Shown piece by piece: positions 2 to 39,036 of a stretch of 64,000 nucleotides of DNA (position 1 is its first letter; the number at the start of each line of letters is the position of its first letter). The notes beneath the pieces were generated by a model. That model searched no databases, was not told the DNA's origin, and worked only from the letters and a program-made list of their open reading frames with translations. Made by a program: the position numbers and the translations under genes. This stretch comes from Treponema sp. Its GTDB lineage: Bacteria; Spirochaetota; Spirochaetia; Treponematales; Treponemataceae. The DNA is taken from positions 51,275 through 115,274 of the forward strand of contig JAIKYZ010000008.1 of assembly GCA_024682655.1 (NCBI GenBank). The letters run 5' to 3'.

Positions 2-1609
2 TTAGTTTCCTGTTCTTCATCTTCAATAAAAAATCAAACCCAGCCATTTCCGGGGATTGAAACACTTCCCACAGAAGTAATTGAACTTGAAAAAGGAAAA
101 ATTCAAGGAATTCAGCTTACAGATAAATCTCTTGAATTATTTGCCGGTATTCCCTTTGCAAAAGCACCTGTGGGAGATTTACGCTGGAAAGAACCTCAGG
201 ATTTAGAGGCCTGGGATGATATTTATTATGCCGACCATTTTGCTCCTATGGCCATGCAAAATCAAACTCCTAAAATTATCAGAAAACTCATGAATGCTTA
301 TGTTCATTCAAAAGGAGACAGAACTGATTTTGCACCTATGTCAGAAGATTGTCTTTATCTTAATATCTGGAGACCTAAGGGCTTAGATTCTACTTCAAAG
401 CTGCCGGTTTTGGTTTATGTTCACGGTGGCAGCCTTTCAAGTGGTTCCAGCTGGTTTCAATCTTATGACGGCGCAAGTTTAGCTCAAAAAGACTTAATTT
501 TTGTTACAATTTCCTATCGTTTGAATATTTTTGGATATTTTGCAAGTCAGGAATTAGCAGAGGAAAGTCCAAACGGAACTACAGGTAATTACGGCCTTTT
601 GGATCAGATTAAGGCCCTTGAATGGGTTAATAAAAACATCAAAGAATTTGGTGGAGACCCAGAAAATATTACAATTGCCGGAGAATCTGCAGGTTCTTCT
701 TCTGTAAACGCTTTATGTGCATCTCCTTTATCAAAGGGAATGTTTAAAAGAGCAATTGCAGAAAGTTCTTCTCTTGTAGTTCCTGTTCCAGCCCATACCT
801 TCCGTTCAAGAGAACTTGCTCTTTCTACTGGTCAAAAAATTATGGATGAACTTGGTGCTAAAAATCTTGCAGATATGAGAAATCTTTCGGCCCAGGAATT
901 AATGAAAACTACTCATGTAAATAATTCTATGACAGTGGATCCTTATTCTATGCCTGAATACCCTTGGGAGATTTACCAGAAAGGTCTGAATCATGAAGAA
1001 GCCCTTTTGAATGGTTTTAATAAAAGAGAAGGCGATGCATTTATCGTTTTATCAAAAATCACTAAGAAAAATTACAGAGATTTAGTGGCAGATTCACCTT
1101 ATGTAACAGATGTTGACGGCTTATGTTCTTTAGCAGAACCAGTAAAAAACAACAAAGAGGCTAAAAAATTCTACGGCAGGTTATTTTCTGCCATTTGTTT
1201 TACTTATCCTCACGACAGCTGGACTAAAGTTCTGGAAAGTCAGGGAAAACCCGTTTATGAATATTATTTTTCTAAGGAAAATAAAGGAATTGGTACTTAT
1301 CACTCTGGCGAAATGATTTATGCCTATGGAAATGTTCCAAAAACTAAGGCCTATAATCAAAGTGATTATGAATTAGAAGAAATAATGTCTGAATATTGGG
1401 CTAATTTTGCAAAATACGGAAATCCAAATGGACTTGGAGAATCAAATCTTCCTTTATGGCAAACTTCAAAAGAAAGTAATGGTTTGCTTTTAGAATTGGG
1501 AGAAGAGATTTATATGAGAGAAGATCCATTTAAAGAAATATATCAGTATCTGGATTTTGATATTGGTGCTGAAAATAGACCTGCAACTTTTGGTCGTAGT
1601 GAAGATTAG
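2..1609 (+). CDS. Carboxylesterase type B, lipoprotein (5' partial)
   Basis: Alpha/beta-hydrolase of the type-B carboxylesterase family, which hydrolyses carboxylic esters; in this glycosidase-rich genome an acyl or feruloyl ester substrate is only a guess. The open frame runs to the window edge and its first residues read LVSCSSSS, a lipobox, so the true start lies just outside and the mature enzyme is probably membrane-anchored outside the cytoplasm. The GTG at 170 is only the first start-like codon inside the window. Visible family motifs are AGIPFAKAPVGDLRW, EDCLYLNIW, the nucleophile elbow GESAG (Ser codon 686-688), and GTYHSGEM containing the likely catalytic His. The acid is probably the Glu in NKREGDAF. 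A 70 bp gap separates it from the metal transporter. Confidence 0.9.
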   Translation, partial: LVSCSSSSIKNQTQPFPGIETLPTEVIELEKGKIQGIQLTDKSLELFAGIPFAKAPVGDLRWKEPQDLEAWDDIYYADHFAPMAMQNQTPKIIRKLMNAYVHSKGDRTDFAPMSEDCLYLNIWRPKGLDSTSKLPVLVYVHGGSLSSGSSWFQSYDGASLAQKDLIFVTISYRLNIFGYFASQELAEESPNGTTGNYGLLDQIKALEWVNKNIKEFGGDPENITIAGESAGSSSVNALCASPLSKGMFKRAIAESSSLVVPVPAHTFRSRELALSTGQKIMDELGAKNLADMRNLSAQELMKTTHVNNSMTVDPYSMPEYPWEIYQKGLNHEEALLNGFNKREGDAFIVLSKITKKNYRDLVADSPYVTDVDGLCSLAEPVKNNKEAKKFYGRLFSAICFTYPHDSWTKVLESQGKPVYEYYFSKENKGIGTYHSGEMIYAYGNVPKTKAYNQSDYELEEIMSEYWANFAKYGNPNGLGESNLPLWQTSKESNGLLLELGEEIYMREDPFKEIYQYLDFDIGAENRPATFGRSED

Positions 1610-1679
1610 AATATTTACAGTACAATTACCTGATATTTTTGTTATATTTTTACAAAATTGTTGGAATTAAAATCACATT

Positions 1680-2711
1680 ATGAGTTATTTAGATGATTTA
1701 CCAGAAAAAACAAGTCTCCAGGTTTTTGATGAAGATTCTCTAATTTTTTCGAGTAAGGGAAAATGGCTTTATCCCTTATTTGAATTAGAGGAATTCTTAA
1801 AAACTTATTCTGGTAAAAATCTATCTTCTCATGATACTGCTATTGGTAAGGCCGCCGCTTTTCTTTCAATCAGGCTGGGAATAAAAAAAATCAACGCAGA
1901 ACTAATCAGTCAAAACGCCCTGAATTATATTAATTACTTAAATAAAAATCTGCCAGAAGAAGAAAAAATCCAGGTAAATTATAAAAATCTGGTTGATAAA
2001 TTGATGTGTGCAACAGAAAATCAACTTGAAGATTTATATGACGGTGATTTAATTTATTCAATTTTAAGGCAGAGGGCTAAACTGGTTCAGGGGATTTCGG
2101 TAAAAGTCGAAAATCTTACTTATTCCTTTGGTTCAATAAATAATCTTTCTTTTGAATTAAAAGCGGGGGCCCATCTTATGATTTTGGGCGAAAATGGGGC
2201 TGGTAAAACAACTTTGTTAAGACTTCTGGCAGGAATTTATAAACCTCTTTCAGGTCGTATTTTATTAGACGACAAAAATCCTGCTGATTTAGATAAATTT
2301 ACAATTGGTTATATTCCCCAGGCCTCAGATAATAGTAATTTTAGTCTTTCTGTTGAAGAAGTAATTGGACTTGGAATTGACAAAAAGGTTAAAGATAAAA
2401 AATCCCTGATAGAAAAATGTCTGATAAGGACTTCCAGTCAAAAATTGGCGGGCAGGGCTTTTAACAGTTTGAGTGGGGGAGAAAAACAAAAAATATCTCT
2501 TGCCCGCTGTCTTGCTCAAAATGCAAAATTACTTCTTTTGGATGAGCCAACTTCTGCCTTGGATAACGAAAATAAGAAAATGGTAACGGATATTTTACGT
2601 TCTCTTACAATTTCTGAAATTCCAACAATAATTGTAGTAACTCACGATAAGGAACTGGCTAATCTTCCGGGTTGGGATAAATTAATTTTGGGGGAAGAAA
2701 ATGTGGACTAA
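1680..2711 (+). CDS. Metal ABC transporter ATPase with N-terminal DUF1893-like domain
   Basis: Energises the Zn/Mn-type ABC importer encoded by the next two genes. The ABC domain fills the C-terminal ~205 of 343 residues: Walker A GENGAGKTT, signature LSGGEKQK, Walker B LLLLDEPTSALD and the switch His in VVTHDKE. The N-terminal ~125 residues are not part of an ABC ATPase. Their pattern (SLIFSSKGKWLYPL, then TAIGKAAAFLSIRLG, then VNYKNLVDKLM) resembles the small DUF1893 family, which I know as a deaminase-like fold without established function. The gene overlaps the permease by 11 bp, so translation is probably coupled. The ATPase call is certain, the metal assignment is by context, and the DUF1893 call is pattern recognition. 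Confidence 0.88.
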   Translation: MSYLDDLPEKTSLQVFDEDSLIFSSKGKWLYPLFELEEFLKTYSGKNLSSHDTAIGKAAAFLSIRLGIKKINAELISQNALNYINYLNKNLPEEEKIQVNYKNLVDKLMCATENQLEDLYDGDLIYSILRQRAKLVQGISVKVENLTYSFGSINNLSFELKAGAHLMILGENGAGKTTLLRLLAGIYKPLSGRILLDDKNPADLDKFTIGYIPQASDNSNFSLSVEEVIGLGIDKKVKDKKSLIEKCLIRTSSQKLAGRAFNSLSGGEKQKISLARCLAQNAKLLLLDEPTSALDNENKKMVTDILRSLTISEIPTIIVVTHDKELANLPGWDKLILGEENVD

Positions 2712-3528
2712 TTTAAGTTTAATATTTACCCTGGCTCCAATCACCCGTGGATTTTTTGCCATGATTATTTCCGGAGCCTTTTTTCCTCTCTGCGGATTGA
2801 TGGTTCTTCGACTTGATTTAGTTCCCCTGCGTTATATGCTAATGCACGGGGTAATTCTTGGTGGAGCCCTGTCTTTAGCCTTAAATCTGCCCCTTTTCCC
2901 GGTGACAATAACTATTAATCTGCTTTTGATTTTTATTATGATGTTTTTTAACAAAACCCAAAGCTTTGGCTTTTCTGGTGCAAGTGCAGCCGCAATGGTT
3001 TTAAGCATGGCATTGGCTTCAATTCTTATGCAAGTTGCTGATGTTCCCGCAAAAGATACTTTAAATCTTATGTGGGGAAGTCCATTTGCCTTAACTAATT
3101 CAGATTTAATAATTTTACTGGCAATTTCCTTTCTTTTGATTTCCTATATTTTCTTTAATTTTAAAAATATTCTGGCCTTATTCTTTAATAAAGATGTTGC
3201 CCAGGCCATGGGAATAAAAGTCCGCTTGAATTATACCTTTATGATTTTGATTATTGCTCTTCTTGTAGCCCTTGCAATGAAACTTCTGGGAGCCTTTTTA
3301 ATTGACTCTTTGTTAATACTTCCAGTCCTAAATGCCAATCTATTTTGCGGAAAAAAATCCTCTGGAATTAAAAAACTTTTTATTACAAGTTCAATTTTTG
3401 GTCTTATAAATTCGCTTTTAGGCTACAGCCTGGCTGTAATGATAAACTGGCCACCCGCAGCTACAATTTCACTTTTAGCAGTAATAATTTATATAATTTT
3501 ATCTTTTGGAAAAAGGAGATCTAAATGA
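2701..3528 (+). CDS. Metal ABC transporter permease (ZnuB/MntB, ABC-3 family)
   Basis: Integral membrane subunit of a zinc/manganese/iron-type ABC importer. The 275 residues hold about seven to eight hydrophobic helices, including the ISGAFFPLCGLMVLRLDLVPLRYMLMHG-type segment near the N-terminus and the SLLILPVLNANL segment near the C-terminus that are characteristic of the ABC-3 family. Its start overlaps the ATPase gene by 11 bp and its stop overlaps the binding-protein start by 4 bp (ATGA), a tight co-translated operon. The exact metal cannot be read from the sequence. Confidence 0.9.
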   Translation: MWTNLSLIFTLAPITRGFFAMIISGAFFPLCGLMVLRLDLVPLRYMLMHGVILGGALSLALNLPLFPVTITINLLLIFIMMFFNKTQSFGFSGASAAAMVLSMALASILMQVADVPAKDTLNLMWGSPFALTNSDLIILLAISFLLISYIFFNFKNILALFFNKDVAQAMGIKVRLNYTFMILIIALLVALAMKLLGAFLIDSLLILPVLNANLFCGKKSSGIKKLFITSSIFGLINSLLGYSLAVMINWPPAATISLLAVIIYIILSFGKRRSK

Positions 3529-4277
3529 AAAAAATTACTTTACTTTTAATTATTCTTATACTTTTAAGCAGCTTAATTTCCTGCAATAAAAAGAAAGAAT
3601 CAGACAATTCTTCCCAAAAGTATATTGCCTCTACAAGCTGGACAGCCGCTTTTGCAGATTTAGCTGGCCTTGATAAGGTTGACGCCATTGCCCCCGCATC
3701 CTTACGTCACCCGCCAGAGTACGAAGTAACACTTTCGGATATTGAGATAATAAAAAACTCAGAATATTTTATTTTTGCAGGTTTTGAAAGAATGATGCAG
3801 ACTCTGGGAACTGCTATTGATGGTGTAAATATGGTAAAAATCACCTGTGATAATTCTATTCAAACTGTAAAAAAATCTGCTTTTCAAATTGCAGAAGTTA
3901 CAGGAACTCAAGAAGAATGTCAGAAAAGAGTAGAAGAATATATTTCTACAATTTTAGAGGGTAAGAAAAAACTTGAAGAAATGGGACTTGCCGGAGCAAA
4001 AGTTTACTGTAATAAAAATCAGATTTATCTTGCCAGGGATTTAGGTCTTGAAGTTGTAGAAATCTTTGGACCGGGCCCTGTTACAAGTCAGCAGATTTTA
4101 ACAGCAAAAGAAGGGGATTTTGATTTTATAATTGATAATGTTCATAATCCAGTTGCAGGTCCATTGACCGAAGTTTCAAGTGCAAAATATATTATCTGGA
4201 GAAATTTCCCGGAAGTGATTGAAAGAAATGCACTTAAGAATGTTGTTGCTAAAAATATTGCAGAAATTACAGAATAA
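3525..4277 (+). CDS. Metal ABC transporter substrate-binding lipoprotein (ZnuA/TroA-like)
   Basis: Solute-binding subunit of the upstream ABC importer. It starts with a lipoprotein signal ending LISC, so it is anchored to the outer face of the inner membrane. HPPEYEVTLSDIE (cf. the DPHxxEPTPSD of cluster-A binding proteins) supplies the first likely His ligand, and a late NVHNPVAGP segment carries another His. At 250 residues it is shorter than typical ZnuA or TroA (about 300) and has no His-rich loop. Transcription probably ends at the hairpin at 4289-4320, inside the converging kinase gene. Confidence 0.82.
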   Translation: MKKITLLLIILILLSSLISCNKKKESDNSSQKYIASTSWTAAFADLAGLDKVDAIAPASLRHPPEYEVTLSDIEIIKNSEYFIFAGFERMMQTLGTAIDGVNMVKITCDNSIQTVKKSAFQIAEVTGTQEECQKRVEEYISTILEGKKKLEEMGLAGAKVYCNKNQIYLARDLGLEVVEIFGPGPVTSQQILTAKEGDFDFIIDNVHNPVAGPLTEVSSAKYIIWRNFPEVIERNALKNVVAKNIAEITE

Positions 4278-4278
4278 A

Positions 4279-5664
4279 TTATAAATAAGGGAGTTGAATG
4301 ATAAATTCAGCTCCTTTTTTATCGCGGCGATTTTCTGCTTTAATTTTTCCGCCCAGGGCTTTTACGATTGTAGAGGAAATTGCAAGCCCAAGACCAGAAC
4401 TTCCCTGACTGCGTTTATGAGCCTTATCTCCCTTGTAAAAACGTTCAAAAATATGAGGTAAAACCTCTTCTTCAAAACCAGGTCCGTTATCTTTTTCAAT
4501 TATAAATACCTGGTCATCTTTTATAAAAGAATCTAATTCAATTAGGCATTCTTTATTTTCTGAACTTTCAGCCTTATTTTTCCAGAATTTTATACTGTTA
4601 GAGATTAAAGCCGTTAAAACCTGGTGGAGTAATTCAATATCGCACTTAAAATTAATGTTGATAGAAGGGGAAAATATTATCTGTAAATCAGGATTTATTG
4701 GGCAGAATTCCTTTTTTAATCTGTCAAAAAGACTGGAAATACTGCAATTTTCATAAAATATTTCTTCTTTTCCATTTTCCAATTTTGAAATTTGCAGAAG
4801 ATTTGTAATTATTGCGCTCATAGAATTTGCTTCTGTGATTATTAAATCAAGAGATTCTTCTAATTGATTTGGGTCCTTTTTTCCCCAGCGCTTTAATAAT
4901 CCTGCCTGTCCCAGAATTCCTGCAATTGGAGTTTTTAATTCGTGGGAAACATCACTTGTAAAATTTCTTTCCCTTTCAAAATCTTTGCGTAAACTTTCAA
5001 AGAGGGAATTAAAAGTCTGGGCCAGTTGATCTAATTCATCATTACGTTTACTTATTGGCAGCAGATTTTCAAGATTTGTACTGCTCATTTGACGGGCACT
5101 TTCTGTAATTTCTTTTACGGGTTTCATAGTTCTTTTTGTGATAAATAATGAAACCAAAAAGGAAATGATTAAAATAGGCAGGGCAAAAATCAAGGCAATT
5201 TTGGGAATTTCTCTTACCATTTCGGCCGCTGCATCCCGGTCCATATCCACCGAGGTTTGCACAATCCACACTTCATTATTTTTACCTTTAAGTTCGCAGC
5301 TGCTGTATAAAATAGTTAAATCTCCATCCGCATAATAATCTGCCTGATGATAACGTTTTACCGTTCCTTCTGTTAATGGAAGTTTTGGTAAAAAGGGGTC
5401 GTTAGTGTGAATAATCTGTCCCGTTTTAGAATCATAAACAAGATAAGTTAAAAAATATGGTAATCCTAAAAGTTCTGGAGTGCTTTCCTGTGTGATATTT
5501 GAACAGACTAAAGCAGTCAGCCCCATAAGAGTATTTTTCATTCTGTTGTTAATTGAAAATCTTAAGACAAATACAAAACCAGAAGATAAAAGTAAGACAA
5601 TCAGAGCTACAATCAGCATAAATCTTATGGAAAGTCTTAAAGAAAGGCTGTTTTTTATCTTCAT
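4279..5664 (-). CDS. Sensor histidine kinase
   Basis: Membrane-bound kinase of a two-component system; it autophosphorylates and passes the phosphate to the response regulator encoded one base upstream. Order in the 461 residues: TM helix (about 12-32), extracytoplasmic sensor region of about 120 residues, second TM (about 155-175), HAMP, phosphoacceptor helix with DVSHELKTPIAGIL, then an ATPase domain with an N-box, DNGPGFEEE, and the GSSGLGLAIS G-box. All catalytic motifs are intact. It is the last gene of a three-gene operon (exported protein, regulator, kinase). The stimulus is unknown. Its 3' end overlaps the terminator of the converging metal transporter operon. Confidence 0.93.
   Translation of the reverse strand: MKIKNSLSLRLSIRFMLIVALIVLLLSSGFVFVLRFSINNRMKNTLMGLTALVCSNITQESTPELLGLPYFLTYLVYDSKTGQIIHTNDPFLPKLPLTEGTVKRYHQADYYADGDLTILYSSCELKGKNNEVWIVQTSVDMDRDAAAEMVREIPKIALIFALPILIISFLVSLFITKRTMKPVKEITESARQMSSTNLENLLPISKRNDELDQLAQTFNSLFESLRKDFERERNFTSDVSHELKTPIAGILGQAGLLKRWGKKDPNQLEESLDLIITEANSMSAIITNLLQISKLENGKEEIFYENCSISSLFDRLKKEFCPINPDLQIIFSPSININFKCDIELLHQVLTALISNSIKFWKNKAESSENKECLIELDSFIKDDQVFIIEKDNGPGFEEEVLPHIFERFYKGDKAHKRSQGSSGLGLAISSTIVKALGGKIKAENRRDKKGAEFIIQLPYL
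4289..4320. terminator. Rho-independent terminator inside the converging kinase gene
   Basis: The arms GGAGTTGAAT and ATTCAGCTCC (4290-4299 and 4305-4314, one G-U pair) are followed by six T on the + strand. It would end the metal transporter transcript. The whole hairpin lies within the last codons of the minus-strand histidine kinase gene, which ends at 4279. Confidence 0.75.
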
Positions 5665-5665
5665 A

Positions 5666-6334
5666 TTACACCATCATATATCCAATGCCACGAATAGTTC
5701 TTATGTATTCACTCTTGGCCACTTGATCAATTTTTGATCTAAGGTAATTTACATAAACATCAACAGTATTTTCTTCTATGAAATAATCTTTACCCCAAAC
5801 TTTATCTATGATTTGATTACGGCTGAGGGCAACATTTACGTTTTCCATAAAATACTTAAGCATTAAAAATTCAAGTTTAGAAAGATTGATGCTATTTCCC
5901 TGAATATTAGCGCTCATACTCTGGGTATTTAATTCAAGGTCTCGATTTTTAAGCAGGGTTTCATTTGAAACAGACTTAAAGCGGCGCAAAACAGCAGAAA
6001 TTCTTGCAAGTAATTCTTCAATCGCAAAAGGTTTTGAAATATAATCATCTGCCCCGGTGTTTAAGCCATTTACCTTGTCGTAAGTTTCCCCCTTGGCAGT
6101 AACTAAAATTACCGGGGTAGAGGAAGCTTTTCGGATTCTTCTAAGAACTTCAATTCCATTTAATTCAGGAAGCATTATATCAAGCAAAACTAAATCAGGT
6201 TTTTCCTCTTCAAATACTTCAAGGGCCTGACGTCCATCTTTTGCGACAAGGCAATTATAACCTTCGTGTTTTAATTCCAGTTCTTCAAAATTTAAGACAG
6301 TTTCGTCGTCTTCTACAATTAAGATTTTTTCCAT
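5666..6334 (-). CDS. OmpR/PhoB-family response regulator
   Basis: DNA-binding output of the adjacent kinase. The receiver domain (about 1-115) has the acidic pocket ED, phosphoacceptor Asp in LVLLDIMLPE, the Thr of VTAKG and the Lys of ISKPF. The C-terminal winged helix (about 125-222) ends in the typical RTIRGIGYMM hairpin. It overlaps the upstream exported-protein gene by 16 bp and lies one base from the kinase gene, so the three are co-expressed. The likely target is the divergent promoter region 6982-7128; this is inferred from arrangement only. Confidence 0.94.
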   Translation of the reverse strand: MEKILIVEDDETVLNFEELELKHEGYNCLVAKDGRQALEVFEEEKPDLVLLDIMLPELNGIEVLRRIRKASSTPVILVTAKGETYDKVNGLNTGADDYISKPFAIEELLARISAVLRRFKSVSNETLLKNRDLELNTQSMSANIQGNSINLSKLEFLMLKYFMENVNVALSRNQIIDKVWGKDYFIEENTVDVYVNYLRSKIDQVAKSEYIRTIRGIGYMMV

Positions 6335-6981
6335 ATTTTTTCTCTCCAGGAATATAAATATTGTGCATTACTACTTACTTTTTCAAGTTTTAAGGCTTGA
6401 ATCTCCAGTCCCTGCCAGGACTTAATATTTTGAATAATCAGATTAAAATTTTCTTCTTCATTAGTGATAATAAATCTAATTCCCCGGGAATTTTTCATAA
6501 ATTGATAGGTGAAAGGGTAGTTTGTATTAATTTTTGGACAGGGGGGAATTTTTTCCTCTTCCTGGGGTAATTTTTTATTGGGATATTTAAGGGGAGGTCT
6601 TCTAGGTGGGGGCATCCTTTTTTCTTTTTGATTTTCAGACATTTCTTCCGGCTCAACCCAATCATTATTTTTATTATTTGAATCTTCAAGGGGGAGAATA
6701 AGAATTGAATCTGCTTTTATTGACATAGGGTCTATTTCGGAGGTGAAAAATACATCCAGACAAGTTTGATTTTCTTCTATTTGGAGAATTTTTATTGCAC
6801 AGATAAAAAAATCTTTTTCACTTTCCAGTTCTTTTAATCTTTTTCCGTGGTAAGAATAAATTCCATCTTCTGGTGGTGGCGGAAAAGCCCTTATATTTTG
6901 ACTTTTCTGCTGGCTTTGTGCAAAAAGAGGAAGTCCTGATATAAATAAGCCTGAAAGCATAATTAAACTCTTTATATTCAT
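6319..6981 (-). CDS. Exported Pro-rich protein of the two-component operon, function unknown
   Basis: No family is recognised. The 220 residues begin with a signal peptide ending near PLFAQS, followed by a PPPPEDG stretch, a domain of about 75 residues, a Pro/charge-rich linker (MPPPRRPPLKYP) and a C-terminal domain of about 80 residues with several Trp and Tyr. It is the first gene of the operon with the response regulator and kinase, which suggests a periplasmic accessory sensor or regulated target. The divergent gene at 7129 also encodes a small exported protein with Pro/Lys-rich segments. Confidence 0.7.
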   Translation of the reverse strand: MNIKSLIMLSGLFISGLPLFAQSQQKSQNIRAFPPPPEDGIYSYHGKRLKELESEKDFFICAIKILQIEENQTCLDVFFTSEIDPMSIKADSILILPLEDSNNKNNDWVEPEEMSENQKEKRMPPPRRPPLKYPNKKLPQEEEKIPPCPKINTNYPFTYQFMKNSRGIRFIITNEEENFNLIIQNIKSWQGLEIQALKLEKVSSNAQYLYSWREKIWKKS

Positions 6982-7128
6982 GATTTAATAATAATCGAAA
7001 ACGACCTTTATCTTAAGCCTTTTTTTATTAGAGTTTTCTAATTTTCTATTAATATCTGTCTAAAGTTTTCAAAGCCCATTTTCTTTATTCTTTTGATTGT
7101 AAGATGATTTTTCTTACGAGGAGTATTT

Positions 7129-12383: not shown

Positions 12384-12560
12384 CGTGTATTTCAATGGAA
12401 CTGTGTGAAAATCACAGACTGAATGCGCAACGGTAAGGTAAGGGCAGTAAAATAAACTGCAAAAGATCTGTAACAATCACTGAAGTAAAATTTGGGAAGA
12501 TTTGATCTTTTTAGTGTTGAAATTACACTATAATTCCAAGTCCGGAAACTTTGGTACACG
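12384..12560 (+). promoter_or_regulatory. Cobalamin riboswitch aptamer
   Basis: Closing arms CGTGTA (12384-12389) and TACACG (12555-12560) enclose conserved B12-box elements: GGAACTGTGTGAAAATCACAG, the GCGCAACGGTAAGG block, TCACTGAAG, and the 3' AAGTCCGGAAACTTTGG. The order and spacing match the cobalamin riboswitch consensus. It precedes a lipoprotein and a BtuB-like receptor, the expected targets. Loop nucleotides TGCGCAA (12424-12430) are exactly complementary to TTGCGCA (12645-12651) in the ribosome-site hairpin. Confidence 0.93.
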
Positions 12561-33082: not shown

Positions 33083-34372
33083 ATGAAAAAATCATCAAAA
33101 ATAATCAAATTTCTTGCCTTGGCATTTTTAACTTTTACTCTCTTTTCTTCTTGTTCTTCAACTACAAAAAATCAAGAAAACATTCAAGAAAACACAGAAA
33201 ATATAGAATTCCAGGAAAATGGACTGGCAGTATTAAATATTAAAGAACCCTTGGTTTTAGATCCTTACCCTACTAATCACAGAGGTGATGGAACTTTCCA
33301 CGATGCCGCCTATATCGCAAAAGATATGAAAATTGGACTAAATCTTGGAAACACTATGGAAGCCTACGAAGCAAATGGCTGTGAAAAAAACTCTTTTACC
33401 TGGATTCCACGACTAGGAAATAACAAAAGCAGTGATTACGAAAGCTGCTGGGGAGCCCCAATTACAAGCCAGGAAATGGTAGACGGAATTAAGGCTGCAG
33501 GATTTAGCACCGTCCGTATTCCAGTTTTCTGGGGAAATATGATGGAAAATGACGGAACCTGGACAATCAACCCTGAACTTTTGGACCGTGTAAGAGAAAT
33601 TGTAGATTATTGTTTAAATGATGATTTATATGCCGTTGTAAACATTCATCATTTTGATGAATTTATTATCAGAAGAAATAATATTGAAGACTGTCAGGTA
33701 ATTTTTACTAATCTTTGGACTCAGATTTCTTCCTACTTTGCTGATTACGGCGAAAAACTTATTTTTGAAGGTTTTAATGAATACCTTGGAGGAAATGTTT
33801 TTAATTCTACCGGTTATCTGGCCCCTCTAAATAATGAAATGGGCTATAAATATACCAACACTATGAATAAAGCCTTTGTAGAGGCAGTTCGCTCTACCGG
33901 GGGAAATAACAGCCAGAGAGTTTTAATTATCAGTGGACTTTGGACAAATATCGACAGAACTACAGCAAAATTTTATCAGGTCCCAGAAGATTCTGTAAAA
34001 GATAAACTTATGGTTTCGGTTCACTATGTTGATAATTCAATGTACTGGGCCGGAAAAATTGCTACTTCGGAATGGGTAACTTATATTGATCAGCAGTGCG
34101 GATTATTGGAAAAAGCTTTTACTTCAAGAGGTATTCCTGTATTCCTTGGAGAAACTACCTCTTTCTACCCTTCACTACGTTCAAGTCAGACCTATAAAAA
34201 TTCTCAGGACTGCGTAAAATATGTAATGGAAACTCTTTTAACAAAAGGCTTTGTGCCAGTTTTATGGGATACCCCAAATAATTTTTACAATAGAAACGAG
34301 GCAAAAATAAAGACTTCTGAAAACGAAAAAATGATTAAAGAAGTTGCTGAATTTGCAGAAAACTTAAATTAA
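33083..34372 (+). CDS. GH5-family endoglucanase-like lipoprotein
   Basis: Predicted cellulase or related beta-glycanase at the cell surface or in the periplasm. The lipoprotein signal ends LFSSC (residues about 1-24). The GH5 barrel starts near MKIGLNLGNTMEA and shows STVRIPVFWG, VVNIHHFDEF, the acid/base Glu in FEGFNEYLGG (the NE motif) and the nucleophile Glu in PVFLGETTSF, followed by VLWDTPNNF. 429 residues is typical for a single-domain GH5. AAGGGG ribosome site. No carbohydrate-binding module is attached. Activity on xyloglucan or mannan is also possible. Confidence 0.92.
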   Translation: MKKSSKIIKFLALAFLTFTLFSSCSSTTKNQENIQENTENIEFQENGLAVLNIKEPLVLDPYPTNHRGDGTFHDAAYIAKDMKIGLNLGNTMEAYEANGCEKNSFTWIPRLGNNKSSDYESCWGAPITSQEMVDGIKAAGFSTVRIPVFWGNMMENDGTWTINPELLDRVREIVDYCLNDDLYAVVNIHHFDEFIIRRNNIEDCQVIFTNLWTQISSYFADYGEKLIFEGFNEYLGGNVFNSTGYLAPLNNEMGYKYTNTMNKAFVEAVRSTGGNNSQRVLIISGLWTNIDRTTAKFYQVPEDSVKDKLMVSVHYVDNSMYWAGKIATSEWVTYIDQQCGLLEKAFTSRGIPVFLGETTSFYPSLRSSQTYKNSQDCVKYVMETLLTKGFVPVLWDTPNNFYNRNEAKIKTSENEKMIKEVAEFAENLN

Positions 34373-34417: not shown

Positions 34418-34452
34418 TACCTATTGACATACTAGGTATTTAACTATATAAA
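34418..34452 (+). promoter_or_regulatory. Promoter of the sulfur operon with overlapping dyad
   Basis: TTGACA (34424-34429), a 17-nt spacer, TATAAA (34447-34452): a near-consensus promoter. The dyad TACCTA (34418-34423) - 9 bp - TAGGTA (34433-34438) brackets the -35 box, a likely repressor site. The half-sites equal those of the palindrome at 12297-12316. Confidence 0.78.
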
Positions 34453-34485
34453 TATCTTATCGTAAATCTTGTCAAAAGGAGGCAA

Positions 34486-34560
34486 ATGATGAAATATTAT
34501 TTCGGAAAATTAGTTCGAGAAAATTTCCGTAACGGAGTCATGTGCCTCTGTTGTCTCTAA
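34486..34560 (+). CDS. Cysteine-rich leader peptide of the metY/cystine transport operon
   Basis: A 24-residue ORF behind a perfect AGGAGG Shine-Dalgarno (34477-34482), starting MMKYYFGKL and ending VMCLCCL. Three of the last five codons are Cys (TGC 34543, TGT 34549, TGT 34552). It lies between the operon promoter and metY, whose product makes sulfur amino acids, and ahead of a cystine-type transporter. The segment TTGTCTC (34551-34557) is exactly complementary to GAGACAA at the metY ribosome site (34720-34726). The leader's own ribosome site and start (34479-34489) can pair with the first Cys codon region (34538-34548) at 10 of 11 positions. This fits ribosome-stalling attenuation by cysteinyl-tRNA; the mechanism is inferred. 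Confidence 0.82.
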   Translation: MMKYYFGKLVRENFRNGVMCLCCL

Positions 34561-34562
34561 TT

Positions 34563-34590
34563 GGGCTGAAAGTTCTTTAGCCTTTAATTA
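34563..34590 (+). terminator. Possible weak attenuator hairpin after the Cys leader
   Basis: GGGCTGAAAG and CTTTAGCC (34563-34572 and 34575-34582) form a short, bulged stem just behind the leader stop codon, followed by an interrupted T-rich run. It could be an attenuator, but the T-tract is poor. Confidence 0.35.
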
Positions 34591-34621
34591 TTTTACAGTT
34601 TAAATTATCAAATTCGCAAAC

Positions 34622-34697
34622 AGGGTTTGGGGCGGAGCCCCAGGCGAAGGGGTAGCCGATTCTTTAGATGAGGCGCAGGGGAAGGCTTTCCCCTCCT
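34622..34697 (+). repeat. GC-rich dispersed intergenic repeat, copy 2
   Basis: GC-rich block in the 5' UTR of metY with hairpins GGGGC-GGA-GCCCC (34629-34641) and a palindrome around GGGGAAGGCTTTCCCC. 34677-34697 is the exact reverse complement of 19446-19466. It sits between the Cys leader ORF and the metY ribosome site. Confidence 0.7.
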
Positions 34698-34730
34698 CTA
34701 TATAAGTATGCATAAACAGGAGACAATATT

Positions 34731-36014
34731 ATGGCAAATTATAAATTCGAAACTTTACAATTACATGTTGGTCAGGAAAATGCTGACCCTACTACTGACT
34801 CTCGCGCAGTACCAATTTATCAGACTACATCTTATGTTTTTCACAATTCTAAACACGCCGCAGACCGTTTTGGCCTTGCAGATGCAGGAAATATCTACGG
34901 ACGTCTTACAAACTCAACTCAAGATGTTTTTGAAAAAAGAATTGCAGCCCTGGAAGGTGGTTCTGCAGCTTTGGCAACTGCCTCGGGAGCCGCAGCAATC
35001 AGCTACACTATTCAGGCCCTGGCAGCAAACGGTGGTCACATTGTAGCCCAGAAAACAATTTACGGTGGCTCTTACAATCTTTTGGCTCATACTTTACCTC
35101 AGTATGGAATTACAAGTACTTTTGTAAATGCCCACAATCTTAAAGAAGTAGAAGCCGCAATCAAAGAAAATACCAGGGCAATTTATCTGGAAACTTTAGG
35201 AAATCCTAATTCTGATATTCCAGATATTGATGAAATTGCAGAAATCGCTCACAAGCACGAACTTCCTCTTGTTGTAGATAACACTTTTGGAACTCCTTTC
35301 CTTATCAGACCTTTGGAACACGGAGCTGATATTGTTGTACATTCTGCTACAAAATTCATTGGCGGCCATGGAACAACTTTAGGTGGAGTAATTATTGAAG
35401 GTGGAAAATTCGACTGGAAAAAGAGCGGAAAGTATAAAAATCTTGCTGATCCAAATCCAAGCTACCACGGAATTTCCTTCTACGATGTACTAGGCCCAGC
35501 GGCTTTTGTAACTTACATCAGAGCAATCCTTCTTCGCGACACTGGTGCTACCCTTTCGCCTTTTAATGCCTTCCTTTTACTTCAGGGACTTGAAACTTTA
35601 TCATTAAGAATTGAACGCCACGTAGAAAACACAAAGAAGGTTGTTGAATTCTTACAAAATCATCCTAAGGTTGCAAAGGTAAATCACCCTTCTCTTGCAG
35701 AACATCCTGACCATGCTCTTTATCAGAAATATTTTCCAAACGGTGGGGCCTCAATCTTTACTTTTGAAATAAAAGGAGGTCGTGATGAAGCCTGGGCCTT
35801 TATCGACCATCTTAAGATTTTCAGTCTGCTTGCAAATGTTGCAGATGTAAAATCTCTTGTAATTCATCCAGCCTCTACTACTCATAGTCAGTTGTCTGAT
35901 GAAGAACTGAGAGATCAGGGAATCAGTCAGAGTACAATTCGTCTTTCAATTGGCACAGAACACATTGATGACATAATTGCTGATTTGGAAGAAGGATTTG
36001 CCGCAATCAAATAA
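34731..36014 (+). CDS. metY: O-acetylhomoserine sulfhydrylase
   Basis: PLP enzyme that converts O-acetylhomoserine (or O-acetylserine) and sulfide to homocysteine (or cysteine). 427 residues, the long form typical of MetY. Opening [20 protein letters not shown] and [36 protein letters not shown], the PLP-contacting [11 protein letters not shown], and the Schiff-base Lys in [14 protein letters not shown]. The ribosome site AGGAG at 34718-34722 overlaps the segment complementary to the leader peptide's Cys codons. It leads an operon with a cystine-type ABC transporter, 57 bp upstream of the binding-protein gene. Confidence 0.95.
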
Positions 36015-36071: not shown

Positions 36072-36923
36072 ATGAAAACTAATAATATTTCTATAATAAA
36101 AAAATCATTTATAATGGGGCTTACAATTGTAAGTTTATTTATTACTCCACTTTATGCAAAGGGAAAGTCTGCCAGAAGTCTTACTCAAATTAAAAAGAGC
36201 GGAAGTATTAAAATTGCGGTCTTTAGCGACAAAAAACCATTTGGCTACGTTGATGAAAATGGAGAATATCAGGGTTACGATATTTATTTTGGAAACAGAA
36301 TTGCAAAGGACCTTGGTGTAAAAGTTAAATACATTCCAGTTGAAGCAGCTAGTCGTGTAGAGGTTCTTACAACTGGTAAGGTGGATTTGGTTCTGGCTAA
36401 CTTCACTGTAACTGAAGAACGTGCTCAGAAGGTTGATTTTGCCCTTCCATATATGAAAGTTGCCCTGGGAATTGTTTCTCCAAAATCAGCCCTGATTACA
36501 GATCCTGCCCAACTTAATGGAAAAACTCTTATTATTGCAAAAGGAACTACAGCAGAAGCTTATTTTTCTAAAAACTACCCGGAAATTAATCTTTTAAAAT
36601 TTGACCAATATTCAGAAGCCTACAATGCACTTTTGGATGGCAGAGGTGATGGCCTTTCTACTGATAACACAGAGGTTCTTGCCTGGGCTATTGAAAATCC
36701 TGATTTTGCGGTTGGAGCGGGTGCAGATTCAATTGGCAACCTGGATTCTATTGCGGCTGCTGTTCAAAAAGGAAACAAAGAACTTTTAGATTGGCTTAAT
36801 GATGAAATTATAAAGCTTGGAAAAGAAAATTTCTTCCATGCAGATTACGAAGCCACTCTACGCGAAGTCTACGGAAAAGATTCTGATGCTGACAGTCTGG
36901 TTGTAGAAGGCGGAAAACTCTAA
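36072..36923 (+). CDS. Cystine/amino-acid ABC transporter substrate-binding protein
   Basis: Periplasmic binding protein of the polar amino acid family (SBP_bac_3), 283 residues with a signal peptide ending LYAKG. The opening SGSIKIAVFSDKKPFGYVDENGEYQGYDIYFGNRIAKDLG is the family signature region; VDLVLANFTVTEERAQKVDFALPYM forms the ligand lobe. Position behind metY and a Cys-codon leader points to cystine or cysteine as substrate; the fold alone would allow other polar amino acids. It is probably lipid-free: no lipobox Cys is present. Confidence 0.88.
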   Translation: MKTNNISIIKKSFIMGLTIVSLFITPLYAKGKSARSLTQIKKSGSIKIAVFSDKKPFGYVDENGEYQGYDIYFGNRIAKDLGVKVKYIPVEAASRVEVLTTGKVDLVLANFTVTEERAQKVDFALPYMKVALGIVSPKSALITDPAQLNGKTLIIAKGTTAEAYFSKNYPEINLLKFDQYSEAYNALLDGRGDGLSTDNTEVLAWAIENPDFAVGAGADSIGNLDSIAAAVQKGNKELLDWLNDEIIKLGKENFFHADYEATLREVYGKDSDADSLVVEGGKL

Positions 36924-36955
36924 AAATATTGAGCGTGCAAAATTGTGAGGAATAA

Positions 36956-37609
36956 ATGGATTTTAATTTTATAAAAGAAAACCTGGACCTTTACTATAAA
37001 GCAGCAATTCTTACCCTAAGGCTTGGTTTTACAGGAATTATCCTTTCCTTCTTTACAGGACTTTTTTGCGCGCTCATTACTTACTGGAAAGTTCCTGTCA
37101 TAAAAAAAATAATAGCTGTATATATTGAAATTTCAAGAAATACTCCTCTTCTTATACAGCTCTTTTTTCTTTATTTTGCACTTCCAAAACTTGGAATAAA
37201 ACTTTCTTCAGAAGCCTGTGCTATTATTGGTCTTACCTTTTTAGGGGGCTCCTACATGGCAGAAAGTATAAGGAGTGCCATTGAATCAGTCAGCAAAAAT
37301 CAAATTGAAAGCGGACTTTGTCTAGGCTTAAGTAAAATACAGATTCTTTTTTACCTTATTCTTCCTCAGGCCCTAAGATTCTGCATTCCAGGAATTGTGG
37401 CAAATATAATTTTTTTACTGAAAGAAACTTCGCTTTTTAGTGCTGTAGCTCTGGCAGATTTAATGTTTGTAGCAAAAGATTTAATAGGTCTTTATTACAA
37501 AACTGAGGAAGCCCTTTTTTTACTGGTGATTGCTTATTTTATAATTCTGCTGCCAATTTCCCTGCTGGCTCATTTTTTAGAAAAGAGGTTGGATTATGGA
37601 AGAGTCTGA
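36956..37609 (+). CDS. Cystine-type ABC transporter permease 1
   Basis: HisM/GlnP-family membrane subunit, 217 residues, about five helices. The EAA loop that contacts the ATPase is visible as ESGLCLGLSKIQILFYLILPQALR. Typical PLLIQLFFLYFALP segment upstream. GTGAGGA ribosome site. It overlaps permease 2 by 14 bp, so the two are translated together and likely form a heterodimeric channel. Confidence 0.92.
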   Translation: MDFNFIKENLDLYYKAAILTLRLGFTGIILSFFTGLFCALITYWKVPVIKKIIAVYIEISRNTPLLIQLFFLYFALPKLGIKLSSEACAIIGLTFLGGSYMAESIRSAIESVSKNQIESGLCLGLSKIQILFYLILPQALRFCIPGIVANIIFLLKETSLFSAVALADLMFVAKDLIGLYYKTEEALFLLVIAYFIILLPISLLAHFLEKRLDYGRV

Positions 37610-38294
37610 AAGCATAAATCAATTTTATCTAGCCATTTCGGTTTTATTTAAGGGTAAAAATTTTATAAGACTTTTAAATGGTCTATGGGTTACTGTGTGG
37701 ATTACATTAGTTTCTGTTTTACTTTCGATTTTCTTTGGCCTGATTTTTGGATTTTTGATGAATAAAAAGAACAAAGTTCTCCGTCTTATCTGTAAAATTC
37801 ATCTTGAAATAATGAGAATTACACCACAACTTGTTCTTCTTTTTATAGCCTATTATGGAATAAGTCACCTTTTTGGAATTTCTATTTCTGGAGAACTTGC
37901 AAGTATACTTGTTTTTACTCTCTGGGGAAGTGCTGAAATGGGAGATTTAGTAAGAGCTGGATTAGAGGCTATTCCCAATCACCAGTACGAAAGTGGCAGA
38001 GCTCTGGGCCTAAAAGAAAAACAGATTTTCTTTTACATAATTTTACCTCAGACTATAAGGGGTCTTATACCAACTACGATGAATCTTATTACCAGAATGA
38101 TTAAAACAACCTCTCTGGTAGTTTTTGTAGGCGTAATAGAAGTTGTAAAAATAGGACAGCAAATTATAGAAGCAAACCGAATAAAAATTCCTAGCGCTTC
38201 AATCGCGGTTTACGGACTTATATTCATTTTATATTTTTTAGTCTGCTGGCCAATTTCGCTTACTGCAAAAAAAATTGAAAAAAGAGGTCTTTAA
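37596..38294 (+). CDS. Cystine-type ABC transporter permease 2
   Basis: Second HisM/GlnP-family membrane subunit, 232 residues with about five helices. EAA loop [29 protein letters not shown]. The N-terminal ~25 residues are cytoplasmic. It follows permease 1 with a 14 bp overlap and precedes the ATPase gene by one base. Confidence 0.92.
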
Positions 38295-38295
38295 T

Positions 38296-39036
38296 ATGGC
38301 TTTATTAAAAGTAGAAAATCTTCATAAATCTTTTACTGAACAAAATGAAATCCTGGACGGAATTTCTTTTGAATTAAATAAGGGGGAAGTTCTGGTAATT
38401 TTAGGTTCTTCCGGTTGTGGAAAATCTACCTTACTGCGTGCAATAAACGGGTTGGAAAGCATTCAAGAAGGACAGATTTATTTTATGAACCAGCTAATAT
38501 CAGATTCAAATAAAACCAGCCGTCTTATCCGTCAGAAAATCGGGATGGTTTTTCAAAGTTATGACCTCTTTCCTCATTTGACCGTAATGCAAAACCTGCT
38601 TTTAGGCCCCTTAAAAGTACAAAAAAGAAATAAGGATGAAGCTAAAGAGCAGGCAGAAAAGCTTTTAGAAAGAATTGGCTTAATAGATAAAAAAAATGCC
38701 TACCCCAGGGAATTATCTGGTGGTCAAAAGCAAAGAGTCGCAATTGCAAGAGCCCTTTGTATGAATCCCCAGCTTCTTTTATTTGACGAAGTTACAGCAG
38801 CCTTAGACCCCGAAATGGTTAGAGAAGTTCTTGATGTTATTATGGATCTGGCAAAAGAAGGAAAAACAATGATTATTGTTACCCATCAATTAGATTTTGC
38901 AAAGGCAGTAGCTGACAGAGTAATCTTTATAGATCAGGGAAAAATTTTAGAAGACTCAAAACCAGAAGATTTTTTTAACTGGCCAAAAAGTCAAAGGGCA
39001 AAAGAATTTTTACAAGCCTTCAAATTTGAAAAATAA
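38296..39036 (+). CDS. Cystine-type ABC transporter ATPase
   Basis: 246-residue ATPase of the polar amino acid uptake family (GlnQ/HisP type). Walker [11 protein letters not shown]-loop [17 protein letters not shown], signature LSGGQKQR, Walker [16 protein letters not shown], switch His in [13 protein letters not shown] at 38275 inside the permease gene is open in this frame but GAGG lies behind it, 8 nt before the ATG at 38296. Last gene of the sulfur operon; no strong terminator follows. Confidence 0.93.

Follow-up and report, generated by a model that had tools for sequence, protein, structure and literature searches.

In this Treponema genome metY is preceded by a 23-codon leader ORF whose Cys codons are complementary both to the leader's own ribosome-binding site and to that of metY, an arrangement that comparative sequence analysis leads us to read, with a probability of roughly 0.6, as a cysteine-sensing translational attenuator. 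If this is correct, spirochaetes would possess a genus-wide cysteine-sensing leader system, in which one short codon run serves as the sensor and as the lock for two ribosome-binding sites. The approximately ninety variants that occur naturally, some of them lacking Cys codons, would then offer a means of asking whether it is the codons or the nascent chain that sense.

The leader lies in a window of 64,000 nucleotides (the whole stretch of DNA analysed), where the gap between a cellulase-family gene (ending at 34372) and metY (starting at 34731) holds a promoter, an AGGAGG sequence and a short ORF (Table 1). A preliminary description of this DNA had named these elements, and every letter of them is present, including the peptide end Val-Met-Cys-Leu-Cys-Cys-Leu-stop (VMCLCCL). 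The ORF that it drew is also real, but had been given 24 codons from 34486; judging from the homologues and a 6-nt Shine-Dalgarno (SD) spacing, translation probably starts at the second ATG, 34489, giving 23 codons. The promoter is absent from the output of our consensus scan, the rule of which demands a T at the last −10 position. Downstream, metY was as described (TIGR01326) and is followed by a polar amino-acid ABC transporter; its specificity for cystine is putative, no equivalog cut-off having been reached among the NCBIfam families listed.

Table 1. Features of the leader region and the genes behind it (positions in the window)
Feature	Position	Strand	Basis or remark
Operator-like palindrome ACCTAYTNNNNNARTAGGT	34419..34437	+	Overlaps the -35 box; read from sequence
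Promoter TTGACA-17-TATAAA	34424..34452 (TTGACA 34424-34429, 17 nt, TATAAA 34447-34452)	+	Read from sequence
Leader Shine-Dalgarno to start codon, segment A	34477..34489 (AGGAGG 34477-34482)	+	Partner of codons 17-20
Leader ORF, 23 codons, MKYYFGKLVRENFRNGVMCLCCL	34489..34560	+	93 homologous leaders, the window's own counted; ORF list also permits ATG 34486
Conserved core of the nascent peptide (residues 4-16, YFGKLVRENFRNG), coding segment	34498..34536	+	Codon-difference counts, residues 4-11
Segment B1, codons V17 M18 C19 L20	34537..34548	+	Anti-SD to the leader's own SD; swap and recoding tests
Segment B', codons C21 C22 L23 and first stop base	34549..34558	+	Anti-SD to metY; swap tests
Hairpin directly 3' of leader stop	34563..34583	+	Terminator-like in consensus scan
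G+C-rich dispersed repeat within the gap	34620..34700	+	Lineage-specific, outside the leader family; own-genome matches
metY Shine-Dalgarno and start, segment C	34719..34733	+	Read from sequence
metY, O-acetylhomoserine sulfhydrylase family	34731..36014	+	TIGR01326, 636 bits against a cut-off of 495
ABC transporter for polar amino acids: SBP (36072-36923), two permeases and an ATPase	36072..39036	+	Cystine specificity putative; NCBIfam

Both complementarities previously reported in the window are present as stated. Around the leader start, GAGGCAAATGA (34479-34489) pairs with TCATGTGCCTC (34538-34548) at 10 of 11 positions, and TTGTCTC (34551-34557), within the Cys codons, is the exact complement of GAGACAA (34720-34726), which overlaps the metY SD. 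The latter pairing extends to a helix of 10 pairs, two G-U pairs included (34549-34558 with 34719-34728; −13.3 kcal/mol), which covers the metY GGAG and is retained in two other loci, L088 and L157. None of the Rfam 15 covariance models matched the leader at its gathering score, the best being a chance-level snoRNA (19.3 bits against a cut-off of 58). The window as a whole has one Rfam match that reaches its gathering score, a Cobalamin riboswitch (RF00174, 40.5 bits) at 12397-12549 on the + strand. The G+C-rich element in the gap was considered as a part of the device and rejected as a dispersed repeat: 34600-34715 is matched wholly or partly at 17 places of its own genome, the window's included, and L012 and L157 have a similar stretch in their gaps.

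The leader belongs to a family. The pattern NFRNGxM occurs at 102 sites in 76 of 200 genomes of the same genus, against 7 sites for the reversed pattern, and 93 of the 102 are leaders by a rule requiring F5, L/I8, V/I9 and R10; the nine rejects, which resemble the core nowhere else, were dropped. Seven leaders that vary at residues 6-8 were outside the earlier, smaller locus sets and are inside the final 93. Between them, the search pattern and the locus filter fix K7, L8, N12-G16 and M18, so conservation was counted on residues 4-11 over all 93. A BLASTN search of 34418-34600 against 59 genomes matched 19, all of the same genus and the own genome counted, some at two or three places; several of these matches comprise the promoter part only. 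With a stricter pattern and one genome per species, 91 stretches were found; among the 80 matches listed, 76 belong to Treponema or to spirochaete records with a less precise name, including T. bryantii, T. saccharophilum, T. porcinum, T. zioleckii and a T. brennaborense MAG. An order-wide sample gave a similar pattern in 28 of 291 genomes and 3 of 82 genera. Leader-bearing Treponema come largely from rumen and gut samples, and a single genome can carry up to four leaders (e.g. G160).

Two Clostridia MAGs (L192 and L217) among the 80 matches listed carry the core ahead of metY as ...NFRNGRM-stop, ending directly after Met18 with no Cys; horizontal transfer, a binning error and an ancestral form are possible explanations. 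Two Bacilli matches (L172 and L224) were rejected because they lie within a 728-aa ORF. Matches of the metY type were present in 187 of 196 genomes. Among the 30 best metY loci, 28 had enough upstream sequence; the leader was present in 19 of these 28, and in the other nine, where none was found, an operator and promoter lie near the gene (by eye). On this sequence sample, the leader is dispensable ahead of metY.

Conservation is concentrated in the middle of the peptide, the consensus of which is Mxx[YF]FEKLVRENFRNG[VRL]M[CR]xCC. Among the 93 leaders, the core residues left free by the search are nearly constant, with F5 and R10 invariant, E6 in 91, K7 in 87, L8 in 92, V9 in 90 and E11 in 86; N12-G16 and M18 are fixed by the pattern, so that their invariance is no evidence. 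A looser search upstream of metY, for any of KLVR, VRENF, ENFRN, NFRNG or a degenerate core, returned 19 leaders, all of which contain NFRNGxM. Pairwise codon differences between 80 non-redundant leaders were 9,443 synonymous to 2,370 non-synonymous over residues 4-11, compared with 550 to 4,715 over residues 2-3 and 1,687 to 7,061 over residues 19-22. The family consists of short ORFs with their own SD and start, conserved at the protein level in 93 leaders and predicted to be translated. That the core is conserved as protein while its codons vary suggests an arrest-peptide element besides codon sensing; residues 4-11, whose conservation is independent of the pattern, belong to a stretch of exit-tunnel length. 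An attenuator that merely counted codons would not need a conserved peptide core, and a codon-only model therefore leaves it unexplained. A second ingredient is presumably called for, most simply an effect of the nascent chain on the pause.

Behind the core, the codons of the predicted end-product amino acid, Cys, are clustered. The preliminary description had proposed looking in related Treponema for conservation of the ORF and its Cys codons, and this was found: Cys follows Met18 in 88 of the 93 leaders, and two or more Cys do so in 71. The exceptions are five Cys-less tails (L070, L076, L081, L082 and L168), and a further Treponemataceae leader, L220, also has no Cys in its tail. At 73 leader loci, Cys makes up 187 of 507 tail residues (37%), and 0.25% of the residues encoded by the first genes. 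Position 19 is filled by C, R, S, Y or H, or by a stop; it is the Cys richness of the tail that is conserved, not the Cys pattern.

Comparison across the family demonstrates, at the level of sequence, selection on two adjacent pairings: A:B1, which would close the leader SD, and B':C, which would close the gene SD. When partners were swapped between loci (5000 permutations), segment A paired better with its own codons 17-20 than with swapped ones (−11.29 versus −9.72 kcal/mol, z −7.65, 0/5000; 80 loci), and segment C did so with its own codons 21-24 (−5.95 versus −4.99, z −4.55, 0/5000; 74 loci). Both complementarities described for the window are thus general in the family. The crossed pairings were not significant (A with codons 21-24, z −1.6, 281/5000; C with codons 17-20, z +1.26), and the B':C pairing gave z −1.66 (283/5000) in the 29 non-metY loci alone. 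Of the 108 cells obtained by sliding both windows, C with codons 21-24 scored lowest (67 loci; z −3.6, with an sd of 1.14 over all cells). Codons 17-24 taken whole had given a weak signal against the gene SD (z about −2), as their first half pairs with the SD of the leader; the clear result came from testing the halves separately. Synonymous recoding weakened A:B, the real codons having a median rank of 0.04 and falling in the lowest tenth at 73% of 73 loci; for B:C the effect was smaller (median rank 0.23, Wilcoxon p 0.0005; 71 loci).

Relatedness between loci has to be considered here, since a control pairing of the post-stop segment with the gene SD gave z +3.3 and +3.6, and relatedness can therefore move z by that amount. 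Loci were thinned by downstream-protein identity to 66, 41, 32 and 27, whereupon z was −8.2, −6.7, −6.0 and −5.0 for A:B1 and −4.7, −3.3, −2.8 and −2.7 for C:B'; the last value, at 27 loci under 80% protein identity, is −2.66 (16/5000). In-gene and gap controls in the thinned sets gave z between −0.3 and −1.5. The advantage of B':C over swapped partners thus survives thinning to 27 loci. For A:B1, Val17 is GTC in 50 of 53 cases, though the downstream genes use GTC for 7% of their Val codons. In segment A, A/G goes along with T/C at codon 19 (counts 35/8/3/13; uncorrected for relatedness, Fisher p 1.6e-5; 8 of 80 loci without GGAGG were left out, and 13 with another base stand outside the 2x2 test), such that Arg19 (CGY) leaders tend to GGCGC and Cys19 leaders to GGCAC. 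Single compensations include TAC with GGTAC in L144 and TCT with GGAGACAT in L131, and the Cys-less L076 keeps a predicted B:C duplex. RNAalifold, applied to seven locus groups, predicted both helix types, A:B1 and B':C, in two metY groups, only the A:B1 type in some other groups, and neither in the URO-D group.

Masking of the metY ribosome-binding site by the Cys codons, as originally proposed, was reproduced by modelling in the window, where a ribosome on the Cys codons raises the predicted accessibility of the gene SD from 0.29 to 0.80, but was weaker across loci. In partition functions of whole 5' regions at 66 loci, pairing of the gene SD with the Cys region exceeded 0.3 in 30% of own contexts and 19% of swapped ones (Mann-Whitney p 0.20), and a ribosome mask at codon 19 produced a mean opening of +0.058 in own and +0.033 in swapped contexts (66 loci; p 0.25). 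The modelled stall-dependent toggle is therefore clear in the window and in a minority of other loci, with own contexts not significantly above swapped ones.

These observations suggest a model in which, with ample Cys-tRNA, the ribosome would complete the leader and depart, both pairings would re-form, and leader and gene would be locked. With Cys-tRNA scarce, it would wait at codons 19-22, covering B1 and B'. This would release the gene SD for translation of metY, and likewise the leader SD, so that a further ribosome can load and the lock stays open. Since the two anti-SD segments are adjacent, both locks can shut together, and one ribosome at codons 19-22 would cover both. The least certain step is that FEKLVRENFRNGxM in the exit tunnel may slow the ribosome or stabilise its pause. 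A fuller version, tentative and in our view somewhat short of an even chance, is a hybrid regulator, in which an arrest peptide (FEKLVRENFRNGxM) is joined to a Cys-codon run acting as a two-way anti-SD, one stalled ribosome opens its own start (and so reinforces itself) as well as that of the gene, and the whole forms a modular cassette placed before as many as four operons in a single Treponema genome.

Might the leader act on transcription instead, with a post-stop hairpin or a Rho site terminating unless a ribosome stalls in the leader? In the window a terminator-like hairpin does lie behind the stop, other leaders repeat a hairpin of the GCTGAAAG type, and hairpins near the leader stop were present in 55 of 93 leaders, against 31 expected from shuffles. 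However, a hairpin with a U-run was found in 8 of 88 gaps, some gaps are as short as 21, 34, 40 and 44 nt, and the hairpin would remain free with a ribosome on the first Cys codon, which is the wrong sign. We rejected a terminator as a general feature on the grounds of the 8/88 count and the gaps down to 21 nt, which point to control of translation, and regard transcription attenuation as very improbable. The least probable reading in our estimation is that the leader encodes a trans-acting, Cys-rich metal- or regulator-binding microprotein, or does no more than supply the gene with reinitiating ribosomes. Conservation of the core as protein, and the presence of several leaders in some genomes (four in G160), would fit this. 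Against it stand the conserved richness but variable pattern of Cys, the selection on synonymous sites for pairing, and the co-orientation of the next called ORF with the leader in 86 of 86 loci. For reinitiation, the median gap of 112 nt is also far from the leader-gene distance of 10-11 bp that has been linked to it (PMC4833913, in the text available, where Spirochaetales leader genes are treated statistically and neither Treponema nor cysteine appears). The post-stop hairpin itself, GGCTGAAAGNNCTTTAGCC in the window (34563-34583), recurs with compensatory variants, such as GCCGGAAAGATCTTTCGGC in L134 and CTGAATGTCATTCAG in L071.

A closer competitor, which we nevertheless consider unlikely, dispenses with codon sensing: FEKLVRENFRNGxM, with Met18 in the P site, would stall in response to a small molecule or by default, and the Cys codons would matter chiefly as anti-SD RNA. 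This accords with the conservation of residues 4-11 as protein over variable codons, with the freedom of the codon after Met, and with the retention of the core in Cys-less leaders, one of which (L076) has a predicted B:C duplex. It leaves the 37% Cys of the tail unexplained if codon identity is irrelevant, the invariance of N12-G16 and M18 is partly imposed by the search pattern, and no chain sequence in the PDB resembles the consensus peptide.

The cysteine-sensing attenuator that we favour has several relatives. Mycobacterial polycysteine short ORFs, reportedly leaderless in the 2020 account of Canestrari, are likewise short ORFs upstream of cysteine genes, and their Cys codons lie close to the stop; the Treponema leader, in contrast, has AGGAGG and a 5' UTR. 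SpeFL, SecM and ErmCL are arrest peptides. TnaC is another (PMC8429421), and all four resemble the Treponema family in being short leaders with a conserved stretch of exit-tunnel length, but the latter has in addition a Cys-codon tail, and its stalling is predicted. Actinobacterial cys/cbs operons have Cys leader peptides with Cys codons near the stop of a short upstream ORF, before cysteine genes and with no conserved terminator in the account given (PMC1262725). Compared with the actinobacterial and mycobacterial Cys leaders, the Treponema leader adds a conserved core, dual anti-SD pairing, many operons and another phylum. The LEU element of actinobacterial leuA has a regulatory codon run predicted to pair with the SD of the gene, as here, but consists of leucine codons and a pseudoknot, and the part of that paper concerned with it describes no self-masking of a leader SD (PMC1262725). 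In the Rhodobacterales, the uORFC-8-2 motif ahead of cysS contains a uORF with tandem Cys codons for which ribosome-mediated attenuation was proposed; as presented there, it ends in an intrinsic terminator and serves cysS only (PMC8632094), unlike the Treponema family with its 8 of 88 gaps, although the hairpin in the window is terminator-like in a looser scan. In the open-licence PMC papers searched, as far as their accessible text goes, the family was not described under leader peptides, Cys attenuation, arrest peptides, uORFs, spirochaetes or the core RENFRNG. Its apparent novelty, claimed earlier, thus holds for Rfam and this literature, with the reservation that relatives of its kind exist in actinobacteria and Rhodobacterales (PMC1262725, PMC8632094, as excerpted); the leader family would be a new case of known ribosome-mediated Cys attenuation.

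Beyond what had been described before, the family exhibits protein-level conservation of the core, a shared operator-promoter, and a spread to metQ, cysK, URO-D/ABC and NifB/NifH-like operons. Behind the 93 leaders, the first gene is of the metY/MetB type in 55, URO-D-like in 10, MetQ in 8, LanC-like in 4 and cysK in 3, with 9 single cases and 4 unclustered. The single cases are a PatB-cluster gene, an ABC ATPase, NifH, a FliY-like SBP and five others (an M20 peptidase ahead of metN, an SBP, an SDR, a GST-like gene and one without a Pfam match); the unclustered ones include, by eye, a metY-like (L091), a LanC-like (L096) and a Cys/Met-metabolism enzyme gene (L168). URO-D-like genes are followed in several loci by an SBP and permeases, and all three cysK genes by a NifB-like gene, two also by a NifH-like one. 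The leader therefore stands upstream of Cys-metabolism genes (metY, cysK, MetQ/N and others), with no evident link for a few first genes (L078, L124).

Upstream of the leader, the palindrome ACCTAYTNNNNNARTAGGT, allowing up to 3 mismatches at its 14 specified positions, was present within 110 nt in 65 of 73 non-redundant loci and in 1 of 73 shuffled controls. Presumably this shared palindrome and promoter provide a second, transcriptional layer of control. The regulator is perhaps a CymR-like Rrf2 protein: L070 carries such a gene, whose best NCBIfam match is CymR, below cut-off, and by eye L220 and L242 also have downstream Rrf2-like ORFs.

Some of the genes behind the leader deserve mention in their own right. 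The MetY of the window has 427 residues with no Cys, and its start Met is its sole Met. NifB-, NifH- or FeMo-Co-domain proteins accompany cysK (L166, L156, L146) or metY-cysK (L081), and in L152 they stand alone behind the leader; these Nif-like genes may constitute a nitrogenase-like sulfur-salvage system. The first ORF of L070 is an 80-aa remnant in which the beginning of one PLP-enzyme-like frame is fused to the last part of a second, with metN/metI/metQ-type genes downstream; its PatB-type cluster label rests on the second half of the remnant. Finally, a LanC-like protein (PF05147; Pfam on L167) comes first behind the leader in L145, L150, L151, L167 and L096, and is followed by cysK in L150, L151 and L167, that is, in three of the four loci assigned as LanC-like.
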